Assembly (NCBI GenBank): GCA_032358255.1
Contig: JAULBX010016971.1
Span: 1-64,000, forward strand
Length of the DNA: 64,000 bases
Direction: 5' to 3'
Origin: Heterotrichella gracilis
Lineage: Eukaryota > Sar > Xanthophyceae > Tribonematales > Xanthonemataceae
The notes under the pieces were generated by a model that worked only from the letters and a program-made list of their open reading frames with translations, did no database searches and was not told the DNA's origin. This document shows positions 140 to 63,304 of the stretch, one piece after another; the first letter of the stretch is position 1; the number at the start of each line of letters is the position of its first letter. A program made the position numbers and the translations under genes.

Positions 140-3100
140 CGTCGTTGGTGTACCCCTCGATGCCCAGCTGCACATACGACACCACCCCCAGGGCGTTGGT
201 GGGCAGGTCCACCACCCCGCTCCTCTTGCCCCCCATCCAGCAGGTGTTCCGCTGCTGGGGGTCGTTGGTATCCAGCCCACAATCACTGGGCTTGAAGGTG
301 TAGCTGGTGACGGGGAGGGAGGCGTTGATAGAGGGGTTGTCGCGGCTGGGGAGGAAGCTGAGGGTGGTGTTCTCCAGGGCCTTGTAGCAGTCGAGGGTTC
401 CCGGGGTGCAGGCGCAGGAGAGGTTGAAGGTGGCGAGGTTGCTGGCCAGGGACTGCGGGGAAGGAAGGGGTTTAGGGTTTAGGACTGCAGGGAGGGGAGG
501 GGGGGGGGGTTGGGTAGGGTTTGGGAGGGGGCGCCACCCCACAGCTTGAAGGTGGCGAGGTTGCTGGCCAGGGACTGCATTTGGGGGAGGGGGGGCAAAG
601 CGCCACAACAGGTAGGAGTTAAACCTAAACCCTAAACGACGGTGCACCGTCACCAGACGTGCAGGGCGCCTTGCCACGCACCAGTTTGGTTCCTGGGGTC
701 CCATCACTTGAGGAGGCCGCCGAGAAATCGATGATGGCATTTGAGAGCGACATACACTACGAGGCGCTAACTGCTCTCAAACCTAATGCCGATCCTAAAC
801 CCTAACCCTAAACCCTTCCCAGAGCATGACCTGCAGGCGCTTAGGCTTGCCACGCACCAGTTTGGTCCCTGCGGTGCCTCCTGGGGTCGCGTCACTTGAG
901 GAGGCCGCCGAGAGGTCGATGATGGCGTTTGAGAGGGGCATGTTGTATGCGGTCATGATGGTCCACTGGCTGCATGTCTGGTTGTAGGAGTCGCACCCAA
1001 AGAAGAGGCACTGCAGGCTGGTGGCTGTGGGCAAGGAGGATAAGATGTTAGGGTTTAGGGTGTGTGGAAGGTACGGTGCAGCCAAAGAAGACGCACTGCA
1101 GGCTGGTAGCTGCAGGCAAGGGGAAAAAGGAGTAGGGTTTAGGGTTTGGGGTTGAGGTTGAAGGAGTCGCAGCCAAAGAAGACGCACTGCAGGCTGGTAG
1201 CTGCGGGCAATCGGGAAAGTGGAGGGTTTAGGGTTTAGCATTTGGGATGTAGTGTGTGTGATAGAGAAGTTGCAGCCAAAAAGGTGCACTGGAGGCTACT
1301 GGCTGTGGGCAAGGGAAAAGGCAGTAGGGTTTCGGGTTTGGGATTGGGATTGAGTGTGTGTGTGGAATACAAGAGCGCGGGAGGTTGCAGGATTTGCAGC
1401 CAAGGGAGGTGCACTGGGTGTTGGTGGCTGTTGGCAAGGGGGGATGTGGCAGTTCAAAGTTTAGGGTTTGGGGTTTTCTCCTGCGCGCACCTGTCATCAC
1501 GTCCTGGTTGATTGTCAGCTCCAGCGCGTTGCTTACGTTGTAGTACTTGGGGGGCACGTCGCGGAACATCACACTGGTGCAGGTCTCGTTCAGGCAGGTG
1601 GACAGGCCCTGCATGACAAAGACAGATTTATATGTTTATTATTAATAACATTTACATTGCAATGTAAAGAGCATCACACTGGTGCAGGCCTTGTTCAGGC
1701 CCTGCATGAATAAAGCGGCTGACTTCACAAGGCTTATTGGAAATTTAATGGGAGCAGTCGTTTTTTTTGTTTAGGCCCCCCAAACGGCCGCCCCCTGCCA
1801 AGTCAGCAAGCAAGAAAGCCTACACCCTACTCCCCAACCCCATTACCCTACCTGGACGTTGAGCTGGTTGATCAGGTCAACCGTGTTGACAGTAGCATAG
1901 GGGTCGTCTATGCTGAAGAAGGTGGACAGGCTGAGGGCGGTGGCACATTCGGCAGTGTACTTGCCCCCAGGGCATGCGCAATTGATGTCCATGTAAGCCA
2001 GGGTGTTGGACCACTCCTGCGGGCGGGTGGGGTGGGGTGGGTGCGGGTGGGAAGAGGGGTGCTGGTTTGGGTGCGGCGTGTGGGGCTATGGGTGTGTAGG
2101 CGCCCAAGCACATGCCCAGTGCAGTGCAGCAATGACGATGATCCATGGTGCAGCATTGATGATGCGACGGTTAGAAGTTGCCCTGGGAGTGGAGCATTGG
2201 GGATGCGGCGGTGGGGATGCCTCCCCAGGGCGCCCATGCTGTACTGGGGATCCCTGCAAGGCCGATCCATATGCATAGCCGCATAGACACTGGGTGCGGA
2301 TGCCATGGGGGTGGCTTCACTGCCAACCTAGTGGGCCCACCACAGCCGCTTCATACCAACACCCATGCGTGCCCATGGCTTTTGCCACGCTGGCTGCGGA
2401 ATGCACCATCCAAGATCCAACCCTGCCTCCACTACACCCAAGGACCCCACAGCCGGCTTCCAGAGCGCTTGAGGTATGAAAGGGTGTAAGAGGAAACTGG
2501 CAGAGCACGGGCGCATCTGTCCTCACCCTTGCGTGGGATGGTGATAGGCAGCTTTTTCATGTGCTTTTCCACGCAAGGTTTTGCCACGTCAATGTGCAGG
2601 GTCAAGTAGGCCCAAGAAACCCAAGCCACTCCCGCCCAGCAAAACCCTGCCAAGAATCCTTACCGTGTCGGGGAAGGCCACGCGCGAGTAGAAGGCTGTT
2701 GCATTCACATCAATGTGCAGGGTGAGGTTGCCCGCCACGTCGCCCCTGGGCAGGGCATCCACCAGCTTAGCCACCTGCTCCTTGGTGGGGGGTGCGGGGG
2801 CCTTGGGGTCCACCAGCTTGTAGTAGTCGGTCCACAGCTTGTCCCTTGCCTCCTGGTCGCTGTACCACACCAGGTCGCAGGTGGCAATGTTGGGGTTGGC
2901 TGTAGGCAAAGGGGGATGGGAGTGAGCAGGGCGGGTGTTAGGGTTTTGGGTTTTCTAGCACCAACTTTGAGGGCACAGCTGGCGGCGCAAGCCGAGCGGA
3001 GTCTGCCAGAGGTGGGTGGTGGTGGTGGTGTGTGCGTGTGTGTGCACTTGCGTACCCATGGGTTGTGAGCGGCGCAGGGCCTCACCCTGTGGGGGGTGCA

Positions 3101-62279: not shown

Positions 62280-63304
62280 ACCGCCACCGCCGCCACCATC
62301 TGGCGAAGGGGGCGGCTCATACGGGTAGGAGAAACCACCACCACTGCCACCTGGCATGGCTGGTTGTGTGCCACCTGGCATGCTGGTTGTGTGTTGCTGC
62401 AGGCGGCGTCCACTGGGGCTGGAGGAGGGGCTGGTGGGTGTGGCGTCGCGGGGCGTATCCCTAGGGTTTTGTTCAGAGGGTTCTATCAGCCCGCCCAGGT
62501 TGGACAGCTCAGCAGGGGACCAGTCAGCAAAGGGGGTGATAGCAGCCTGCAGGAGGGGAGGGGAGGGAAAAGGGGCACTCGGCAAAGAGCGGCACGCATA
62601 ATAGGCACCTAACCCACATTTGATCACTATGGGCGGCACGCCTACTCTATGTTTGATAATCTATCTTCCGGAGTGGCTTAGGGTTACAACAATGCTGGGG
62701 TGGAGAGCTCCGCCTCGTCAGTTTCACGCTGACAACATTTGCAGCAATTGTTTTGGAACAGCACCCCAACCCGCCCACCCACATCCGCCCATGTGCTGCA
62801 GCGCTGTGGTGTCCAGGATCAGCTGCAGCGCAACTTTTGAGCTGAACCCTAATGCCTGGACCCCAAAACCCTAGGGAAACTCCCCACACACACGCACCAC
62901 CCAAGTGTGCTGCTGTGCGTTGGTGTCCTGGATCAGCTGCAGCGCAGACTGGAAGTGGAGGAGTCGGTCCTCGGGGGAGGCGCCTGTGGGGGGTGGAACG
63001 GCAACCTGTGGGGGGGGAGTGGGGGGTGGGGGGCGAGGGAGGGGGGGCCAAGGTGGGGGGGGAGGCTGGCACAGCAGCTTGAGTGGTGGTTGGGATGGGT
63101 GGGTGGTGAGGACTGGGTTGGTCATAGGTTGTGTTACTAGGACCCTAGCTCAGTGCTTGCATGGCGCATATTGTATGCGGTACGATTGCACAAAACCCCA
63201 CATGCCGCACTGCGCCAACACCACAGCTTCAATCGCACCTGTGGGTCGTCTTGAGCGCCCCGCGTGCTTGCCACCCAATCCAAGTACGTATGGACGTCCT
63301 TCCC
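59482..63304 (-). CDS. Papain-family cysteine protease with poly-Gly insert and Lys-Pro-Thr tail
   Basis: Six exons join in phase: 63239-63304, 62901-63005, 61974-62546, 61503-61667, 60934-61119, 59482-60516 (709 residues; 5' end unresolved, possibly beyond the window). It is a C1A peptidase. The pro-region keeps [17 protein letters not shown] and [12 protein letters not shown], as in I29 propeptides. The mature domain begins [20 protein letters not shown] and continues [13 protein letters not shown] (catalytic Gln and Cys), [11 protein letters not shown] (His) and [17 protein letters not shown] (Asn). Two oddities stand out. A run of 64 Gly codons (62106-62297) lies in the pro-region before ARRALL. 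A C-terminal tail of about 220 residues is made of units such as [14 protein letters not shown]. Such proteases normally act in lysosome/vacuole or outside the cell; no signal peptide is visible because the start is missing. Confidence 0.9.
59700..60010 (-). repeat. Coding minisatellite of the protease tail
   Basis: On the plus strand GGCTTGGTGGCTGGAACCTTG-type units of about 33 bases repeat with variation. Translated on the minus strand they give [18 protein letters not shown] 11-residue units. Confidence 0.85.
60780..60840 (-). repeat. Donor-edge copy of exon 60934-61119
   Basis: CCACCCACCTCCATGAGATTCCT-TC-GTGCCCACCACCCA-GGCGAGGTGTAAT is shared by 60776-60830 and 60926-60981. Confidence 0.93.
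61255..61310 (-). repeat. Acceptor-edge copy of exon 60934-61119
   Basis: AGATGCACGCCAAAGTGTCTGGTTACTGTGG at about 61270 is related to AAGGTGCACGCCAAAGCCCTGCGTGGTGG (61102). A GGGTGAGGGTTGGG/GGGATGTGGTGTGG minisatellite (61140-61266) lies between. Confidence 0.65.
61865..61905 (-). repeat. Donor-edge copy of exon 61974-62546
   Basis: TTTTGGTG-GCCA-GCACCG-CCCTTGGTTCTCCACAGGC is shared by 61857-61899 and 61956-61996, each preceded by TAGGGTTTAGGG. Confidence 0.92.
62106..62297 (-). repeat. 64 uninterrupted Gly codons (GGN)n
   Basis: 192 bases of CCA/CCG triplets on the plus strand read as 64 Gly codons in the protease frame. GGT and GGC are mixed irregularly, so this is not a pure microsatellite; selection or old expansion could have kept the frame. 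Confidence 0.95.
62790..62848 (-). repeat. Donor-edge copy of exon 62901-63005
   Basis: TGTGCTGC-GCGCTGTGGTGTCCAGGATCAGCTGCAGCGCA resembles 62909-62948 (TGTGCTGCTGTGCGTTGGTGTCCTGGATCAGCTGCAGCGCA), in the following intron. Confidence 0.88.

Follow-up and report, generated by a model that had tools for sequence, protein, structure and literature searches.

We asked by what process the introns in a 64,000-nt stretch of the Heterotrichella gracilis assembly (contig JAULBX010016971.1; hereafter, the window) come to hold sequences that resemble the edges of their own flanking exons, splice sites included. Intron lengthening is mostly ascribed to transposons. Comparing the window with itself by BLAST (word size 11, at least 38 bits, copy spacing of 40–600), we obtained 62 direct and five inverted pairs after filtering, the search itself admitting none more than 600 bases apart; the same search in 20 simulated order-2 Markov sequences (2-kb blocks) gave no pairs. 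The window pairs merge into 46 local direct-repeat arrays; of these, 31 span a predicted junction, with exon sequence in one copy (19) or in both (12); the others are purely intronic (seven), exon-only (seven) or intergenic (one). Exons and junctions are predictions of a self-trained HMM gene finder, not of RNA, and the class with both copies exonic is inflated because the gene finder often calls intronic copies small exons. The initial annotation of this DNA had claimed at least 30 junction-spanning places, and each of the 10 that it named overlaps a detected pair. Its statement that nearly all genes are concerned holds in the window, where all eight predicted genes contain at least one junction-spanning array; in the 20 other loci, an array occurs in 19 out of 43 gene models, many of which are cut off.

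Table 1. Local direct-repeat arrays along the window, with positions, strand and particulars.
Feature	Positions	Strand	Particulars
Acceptor edge and 32 exon bases, one copy, 97% identity	421..578	-	86-base filler with CCTAAACCCTAAACCC
Acceptor ladder; start of exon 831-1024 and acceptor copied four times upstream	980..1475	-	units of about 85-125, telomere words between; two copies pass the stricter scan
Acceptor edge copy with internal deletion	1564..1700	-	
Donor edge, one copy, 90%	7101..7226	+	filler is GAGTAGGGTTTAGGGTTTAGGGTC
Junction-spanning pair	7436..7804	+	spacing 187
Acceptor edge and exon sequence copied	9842..10173	+	telomere words absent
Acceptor edge copy, WEE1-like kinase gene	11617..11968	+	the two copies of the IRQG segment match one and the same WEE1 stretch
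Donor ladder, parent and three copies	14116..14388	+	units of 63-76; CCCTAAA/CCCTGAA tracts between
Acceptor-edge array, head-to-tail	15118..15336	+	unit of 93, contains telomere words
Acceptor ladder	16693..16966	+	unit of about 92
Donor ladder, 4.2 units of 45	19336..19528	+	exon end, GTG and AAACCCTAAACCCT; copy starts joined to telomeric CTAAACC
Edge copy, SET-domain gene	40106..40553	-	SWSYTPESA segment duplicated in the conceptual protein
Donor edge copy including a long exon stretch	41306..41596	-	
Acceptor ladder	43625..43953	-	unit of 115
Donor edge copy, 94%	44102..44312	-	copy starts at telomeric CCCTAAATCCCT, CCCT shared
Acceptor ladder	48942..49294	+	unit of 116; G-strand and C-strand telomere words
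Donor edge copy, 85%	51395..51665	-	copy called as last exon by the gene finder
Edge copies	51710..52146	-	spacings of 191 and 393
Acceptor edge copy, 88%	53840..54011	-	filler AT-rich, non-telomeric
Edge copy, 92%	54283..54456	-	ATLNRLAMK segment duplicated in the conceptual protein
Donor edge copy	60678..60980	-	spacing 150; telomere words absent
Donor edge copy, 89%	61832..62011	-	unit holds a CCCTAAACCCTAG tract

Further counts were made in a 264-kb sample consisting of the window and 20 other algal loci of 10 kb; five low-GC, bacterial-like loci (L002, L003, L009, L016 and L022) were omitted, and L001 and the later-added loci L027–L044 also lie outside these counts. Removal of pairs made up mostly of telomere words or of low complexity reduced the sample from 167 to 147 pairs (unfiltered results were similar), and 110 arrays were analysed. 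When edges with enough flanking sequence were scanned, a junction-spanning copy was found at an intron-side distance of up to 700 bases at 80 out of 813 edges, and at none of the 813 in the reverse-complement control. The copying of exon edges into adjoining introns is thus confirmed as a real observation. The process is patchy, with arrays in 12 of the 20 other loci and no filtered pair in the remaining eight; spans of local repeats, fillers included, nevertheless touch 124 of 403 introns and cover 15% of the intron bases. An assembly artefact is hardly likely, because 79 of the 110 arrays are less than 90% identical; the copies that flank an assembly gap near 21,880 (99–100% identical) may be one.

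The arrays have the form X–filler–X′, in which X comprises 23–305 aligned bases (median 87) and often includes the splice junction, the copies being located in the adjoining intron, many of them with intron sequence past the splice site. The spacing of copies has a median of 116 (offset 56–331) and the filler a median of 40 bases; spacings lack a single sharp peak, and nucleosome-sized steps were rejected as a candidate. As the initial annotation had it, donor copies lie downstream of their parents (38 versus seven upstream) and acceptor copies upstream (31 versus four downstream), counts that omit 26 further cases where the same kind of splice site was called in both copies. Two other claims fared less well. 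AG or GT is kept in 65 of 77 copies, but the identity of the intron parts already predicts about 72%, so that preservation of the sites as such is weakly supported. Decay with distance is not established either: of 13 edges with at least two copies, eight have their best match in the nearest copy, one shows equal similarity and four are matched better by a more distant copy, and spacing and identity are uncorrelated (rho = −0.09, p = 0.37).

Junctions are spanned by 76 of the 110 arrays, against 46.3 expected when positions are shifted at random over the 264 kb, while 15 are intronic (25.5 expected) and two intergenic (16.1 expected); for the 147 filtered pairs, two are intergenic against 19.8. 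In this sample, copies across junctions therefore exceed other tandem duplications, the outcome on which the initial annotation had made its reading depend. A plain minisatellite, whose position would be independent of genes, was rejected on the intergenic count. Ordinary local tandem duplication could, in principle, produce such a distribution if it were evenly spread, exonic events were lethal, conserved parents kept old copies recognisable and telomere words (see below) were bystanders. The surplus of direct over inverted pairs in the window speaks for it, within the distances searched, as do two numbers at chance level, those of exon-only arrays in which one copy is exonic (14 versus 14.3) and of pairs whose copies both contain exon sequence (38 of 147 versus 38.0, the class inflated by the gene finder), and some decay and detection bias must exist. 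By our reasoning, the bias towards junctions that arises because conserved exon parents decay more slowly should be at most two-fold. The ratio of junction arrays to intronic plus intergenic ones is 4.47 overall, versus 1.14 by random shift, a 3.9-fold excess and, therefore, more than slow exon decay should give. The excess holds amongst arrays of at least 90% identity (5.25 versus 0.80; 21 of 31 arrays at junctions versus 9.8 expected), is weaker, 2.6-fold, at 80–90% (2.55 versus 0.99), and stands at 13.5 versus 2.05 below 80%. The intergenic deficit likewise argues against an evenly spread process, and, with the association with telomeric tracts described below, leads us to regard this explanation as rather unlikely.

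The copies could alternatively be scars of intron birth, in which duplication of an exonic AGGT segment supplies both ends of a new intron, its donor being the first GT and its acceptor the second AG. The model and a case of it are known (PMC4974935), and direct repeats by splice sites are widely reported (PMC11782384). The alignment of donor to acceptor between copies that this model predicts occurs in one of the 110 arrays, and the copies lie inside introns, many extending past the splice site; we consider such an origin improbable. AGGT-type birth also involves a tandem duplication across the intron–exon border, but makes a new intron in one event, whereas in this genome introns already present gain length again and again. 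A mobile element, be it an introner or another kind, is more doubtful still, and we give it hardly any credence: one intron does contain a dispersed 120-base repeat (30788–30923), but each array is built from the sequence of its own locus, and with telomere words masked, a single pair among the 110 arrays shares sequence, in keeping with the earlier claim that the copies are not a transposon family. The dispersed repeat was sought in the viral contigs and was found in none; a search of the window against Rfam at gathering scores gave no matches.

What the initial annotation had overlooked is the telomere word TTTAGGG/CCCTAAA, in which both fillers and parent edges are rich. It covers 3.2% of the bases in introns, 0.3% of those between genes and 0.1% of those in exons (2.99, 0.27 and 0.12 words per kb, respectively). 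In introns of at least 150 bases, its coverage reaches 9.5% at 15–30 bases from donors and 4.9% at that distance from acceptors, and is about 1–4% beyond 60 bases from the splice sites. Amongst 108 fillers, 52 contain a telomere word and 56 do not, against 10.8% of random intron segments that do. At the 750 edges of introns of at least 80 bases, a copy is present at 49 of 150 edges with a telomeric tract within 60 bases and at 66 of 600 without (odds ratio 3.9, p = 1.3e-9); the latter are 66 of the 115 copy-bearing edges. The tracts are short (332 of 357 measure 8–17 bases), too short for most of them to form G-quadruplexes. The genome's telomere unit matches the intron word, as CCCTAAA runs open contigs C70, C140, C526, C609, C717, C770 and C824. 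Such runs also occur at inner positions of other contigs.

Whole-assembly pattern counts, which take in the bacterial contigs of this mixed assembly as well as overlapping matches, agree with a concentration near intron edges: donor-like CAGGTGNG is followed by CCCTAAACC 487 times at 5–30 and 205 times at 105–130, and by GGTTTAGGG 781 and 252 times, the reversed-pattern controls giving 0–2. By raw count, the preponderance of G over C is modestly higher near donors (781:487) than further away (252:205). Three of the later-added loci carry ladders: 11 donor-like sites, mostly in 96-base steps and with an intron part that is nearly all TTTAGGG-like (L042), five donors in steps of 112–119 (L043), and three acceptors in 80-base steps with a CCCTAAACCCTAAA tract before each (L044). 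An origin of whole introns as telomeric inserts was rejected, telomere coverage being about 2–4% at all intron lengths of at least 100; the 6–8% in shorter introns is confounded by gene-finder splits.

The telomere-like words could also be functional intron signals (a CTAAAC branch site and donor-side G runs) selected at edges, which the duplications merely include. The branch region is indeed enriched in CCTAAC (nine-fold) and CCCTAA (2.8-fold), the most enriched words after donors include telomere heptamers, and G-strand tracts are rare near acceptors. Near donors, however, both strands are enriched, which is unexpected of an RNA signal, the sense ratio of 235:127 is close to the expectation from base composition (41.7:26.5), and the copies themselves are left unexplained, so that we judge this account unlikely.

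On balance, we favour a process in which short tandem duplications keep arising across the exon–intron border, through break repair with telomeric participation, and make these introns grow. The arrays bear the signature of break-repair tandem duplication, i.e., a local direct copy of limited length with filler or none at the join, and, as junction copies are often joined by telomere fragments, sloppy repair at exon edges is suggested. Breaks or paired nicks close to intron edges would leave overhanging ends that carry X, and fill-in of both ends followed by joining would duplicate it. At the join, telomeric DNA may be added by telomerase, be captured, or pre-exist as a tract offering microhomology; its role would be that of a filler or a weak spot. 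Duplications would survive only where the outer splice site stays usable, each survivor making the intron longer and adding a decoy site to it, and repeated events would build ladders. This is a reconstructed order of events, drawn from one genome. The proposal of the initial annotation that introns grow by local tandem duplication of the junction is partly supported: copying is local, direct and across the border, lengthens introns and leaves decoy sites, but the simple head-to-tail form is a minority, because 74 of the 110 arrays have a filler of at least 15 bases. Certain results count against break repair: intergenic DNA, expected to tolerate such scars, is nearly free of arrays, the process is patchy, exon-only arrays are at chance level, many fillers are telomere-free, and fillers lack the polarity of telomerase (G-strand by the left copy, C-strand by the right; p = 0.14 with one array per site, p = 0.54 with all pairs).

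Known systems offer parallels. Small tandem duplications arise in break repair by fill-in of ends at paired nicks, with CST and Polymerase α-primase (PMC8355091); these are likewise local direct copies of tens of bases at a break, formed by fill-in and end-joining, and the fill-in complex is the one working at telomeres, but here, the copies are mostly diverged, occur across the sampled genome, are concentrated at exon edges and often have telomeric filler. Break repair also inserts telomere repeats, as short interstitial telomeric sequences at double-strand breaks (PMC2246262), with telomere units at former break sites and a target that is sometimes duplicated; those described here are nearly confined to introns, biased to edges and tied to exon-edge copies. 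Direct repeats at intron borders have been read as break-repair scars (PMC11782384), but these measure 4–30 bases and pair both borders of one intron, whereas ours have a median of 87 and pair an edge with the intron interior. Tandem repeats are enriched toward intron ends in Chlamydomonas and Volvox, too (PMC3887541); they are set apart by their description as short motifs, with GT/AC the top one in introns, and a text search of that paper found no “telomer”, CCCTAAA or AAACCCT.

A bolder version, which we think rather improbable, is that telomere-end processing (telomerase and/or CST with Polymerase α-primase) is routine at intron-edge breaks and a main engine of intron growth, each event copying the edge and leaving a telomeric seed that favours the next, so that introns would be slowly growing, self-seeding decoy ladders. 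If the break-repair reading is true, it would connect gene structure with telomere maintenance and break repair, the repair of breaks at exon edges would be naturally recorded in these introns, and, by extrapolation, possibly thousands of natural decoy splice sites would offer a test of spliceosome choice. LHC and sigma-70 genes were both recognised in the analysed sequence and, together with the TTTAGGG telomere, would fit a green-lineage alga; the assembly gave no match to the RuBisCO large subunit. A before-and-after comparison of paralogues was uninformative, as the two LHC genes have exons in common but differ in their introns.

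Filtering of the local repeats in the window left 62 direct versus five inverted ones, and none in 20 simulations: copies of exon edges are present, as the initial annotation had claimed, and all 10 examples that it named are found among the detected repeat pairs. The direct pairs merge into 46 arrays, 31 of them junction-spanning, and in gene-sense alignments the copies continue across the splice site. The sides assigned to them hold as well: of 45 donor copies 38 lie downstream, and of 35 acceptor copies 31 lie upstream. In the kinase model, the IRQG-region segment is present twice and, since both copies match the same WEE1 stretch in the protein alignment, one of the two is very likely not kinase sequence.

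The window makes up the opening 64 kb of a contig of 79.7 kb, from an assembly of 68.5 Mb and 903 contigs, and holds intron-rich genes (see the table), whose identities point to an alga of the green lineage. The assembly seems to be mixed, apparently with bacteria included: five of the first 25 sampled regions are bacteria-like, with low GC and long open frames (contigs C1, C43, C92 and C127 of assembly G000). Exons were taken from a self-trained gene finder, run on the window together with 20 other loci, 264 kb in all, which converged on 454 exons with donor CAG/GTRNG and acceptor pyrimidine-TGCAG/G. For 80 of 813 intron edges in this sample, a junction-spanning copy lies no more than 700 bases away on the intron side; the reverse-complement control gives none of 813. 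The distribution is uneven, filtered pairs occurring in 12 of the 20 other loci and in none of the remaining eight.

Features of the window and ladders at loci from the same assembly
Feature	Location	Details
WEE1-like kinase		window gene
Sigma-70 factor		window gene
Chlorophyll a-b binding protein		window gene
SET-domain protein		window gene
Pyridine nucleotide-disulphide oxidoreductase-like protein		window gene
Papain-family protease		window gene
Copy joined to telomeric tract	19336-19528	shared AAACC or CTAAACC (by eye)
Copies flanking assembly gap (Ns)	21670-22094	99-100% identical; possibly a very recent duplication or an artefact of assembly
Dispersed repeat	30788-30923	~120 bases, in sigma-factor intron; further places L032-L041
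Copy joined to telomeric tract	44102-44312	shared CCCT (by eye)
Sole cross-array match	46270-46593 and 51395-51665	a fragment similar to the 3' terminus of the oxidoreductase-like gene lies ~5 kb away from it and is duplicated as well
Ladder	L042	11 donor-like sites, the first reading GC; steps mostly 96 bases
Ladder	L043	5 donors; steps 112-119
Ladder	L044	3 acceptors; steps 80; C-strand telomere repeats before each

Head-to-tail copies are the minority: at least 15 bases separate the two in 74 of the 110 arrays of the sample, with medians of 40 bases for the filler between copies, 116 for spacing and 83% for identity (n = 110). Highly identical pairs, in the alignments inspected, show no filler past the second copy, hence the structure [X][filler][X], where X is the repeated segment. 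When each array was shifted randomly within its own locus, 46.3 of the 110 were expected to span a junction (76 observed), 22.0 to be exon-only (17), 25.5 intronic (15) and 16.1 intergenic (two). Plain minisatellites are rejected by this position relative to genes, intergenic arrays being so few. Introners are likewise rejected, as sequence matches between arrays, with telomere words masked, are limited to one pair, and so is AGGT-type intron birth, whose predicted arrangement occurs in one of 110 arrays.

Two freely drifting copies diverge at most twice as fast as a pair with a frozen parent; by our reasoning, decay can therefore bias the ratio of junction arrays to all intronic and intergenic ones by at most 2-fold. 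That ratio is 4.47 versus 1.14 expected, a 3.9-fold excess, which becomes 6.6-fold among copies at least 90% identical and falls to 2.6-fold at 80-90% identity, a class without depletion of intronic arrays (11 versus 10.6). Some intronic copies were called exons by the gene finder, so that arrays with exonic bases in both copies are overcounted; arrays with exon sequence in a single copy have a junction to intronic ratio of 46:15 (24.1:25.5 expected). Junction placement is beyond chance.

The initial annotation overlooked the telomeric sequence. AAACCCT and its rotations rank top among intron heptamers, and this is the organism's own telomere word, five-unit runs of which begin seven contigs (inner runs occur too). 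Per kb, CCCTAA/TTAGGG occurs 2.99 times in introns, 0.27 in intergenic DNA and 0.12 in exons, and it is found in 52 of 108 fillers, whereas 10.8% of intron segments drawn at random contain it. Coverage by eight-base telomere words is 3.24% for introns, 0.30% for intergenic DNA and 0.09% for exons; among the 17 sequences whose intergenic part exceeds 100 bases, 16 are covered more densely in their introns (L024 is the exception). Coverage is maximal 15-30 bases from splice sites (donor 9.5%, acceptor 4.9%), and the peaks persist outside arrays (6.8% and 4.0%). Copies accompany 49 of the 150 edges that have a tract no more than 60 bases away, versus 66 of the 600 others. Such words could possibly serve splicing close to acceptors, a zone enriched in CTAAC-like branch words; that both strands are enriched near donors argues against an RNA signal being the only cause. 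CCTAAC, CTAACC and CTGACCC are strongly enriched at intron positions -55 to -12 of the 264-kb sample, pointing to a CTRAC-like branch consensus.

Independently of gene models, we counted donor-like CAGGTGNG with a telomere word at set distances over the whole assembly. CCCTAAACC followed 487 times at 5-30 bases and 205 times at 105-130 bases, and GGTTTAGGG 781 and 252 times, respectively; reversed-pattern controls gave 0-2 matches. A telomere word ahead of CAGGTGNG gave 191 matches, many acceptor-like by eye. Counted by hand among the first 100 places listed for each, distinct donors grouped within 250 bases on one strand four times for CCCTAAACC and nine times for GGTTTAGGG. Three ladders taken from these matches were examined (see the table): L042 and L043 came from the donor patterns, L044 from the search with the telomere word ahead. 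The L042 unit joins ~50 bases of exon end to ~46 bases of TTTAGGG-like intron start. Near-identical L043 rungs each contain a potential acceptor (TGCACAG) besides the donor, and could be spliced in as additional exons of ~52 bases, a length not divisible by three.

As to the source of the copies, we lean, on balance, towards break repair at intron edges in which telomeric DNA participates. Staggered ends would be filled in and joined, duplicating X with filler between the copies, and telomeric DNA would take part in the join; a local X in [X][filler][X] is the expected product. This geometry is joined by two published precedents: in mouse and human cells, fill-in and joining that involve CST and Pol alpha-primase, which together fill in telomere ends, produce small tandem duplications (PMC8355091), and telomere repeats are inserted at breaks in mammalian genomes, sometimes with target duplications (PMC2246262). 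Telomerase extending both ends predicts a polarity that the fillers do not show; telomeric DNA may thus enter by fragment capture or by annealing at pre-existing tracts. The scarcity of arrays in intergenic DNA is accounted for by no reading considered.

Earlier work describes tandem repeats towards the ends of introns for two green algae (PMC3887541), direct repeats 4-30 bases long for the borders of introns (PMC11782384), and a single potato intron arisen by duplication across an intron-exon border (PMC4974935). For Arabidopsis and rice, telo boxes are reported without intron enrichment (PMC3022908). Passages of a review of intron origins (PMC3488318) and of a Chlamydomonas comparison (PMC8226300) hold nothing of this kind, and titles and abstract openings in the open-licence literature yielded no report of telomere-associated exon-edge copying.

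The window has no Rfam match, the dispersed repeat included; that repeat occurs at 34 or more further places in its own genome (78-92% identity), a lower bound, the candidates being scored in part. Lastly, the LHC paralogues L029 (C84) and L030 (C217) have largely identical central exons and introns that do not align, which suggests either that exons were converted or that introns turn over very fast.
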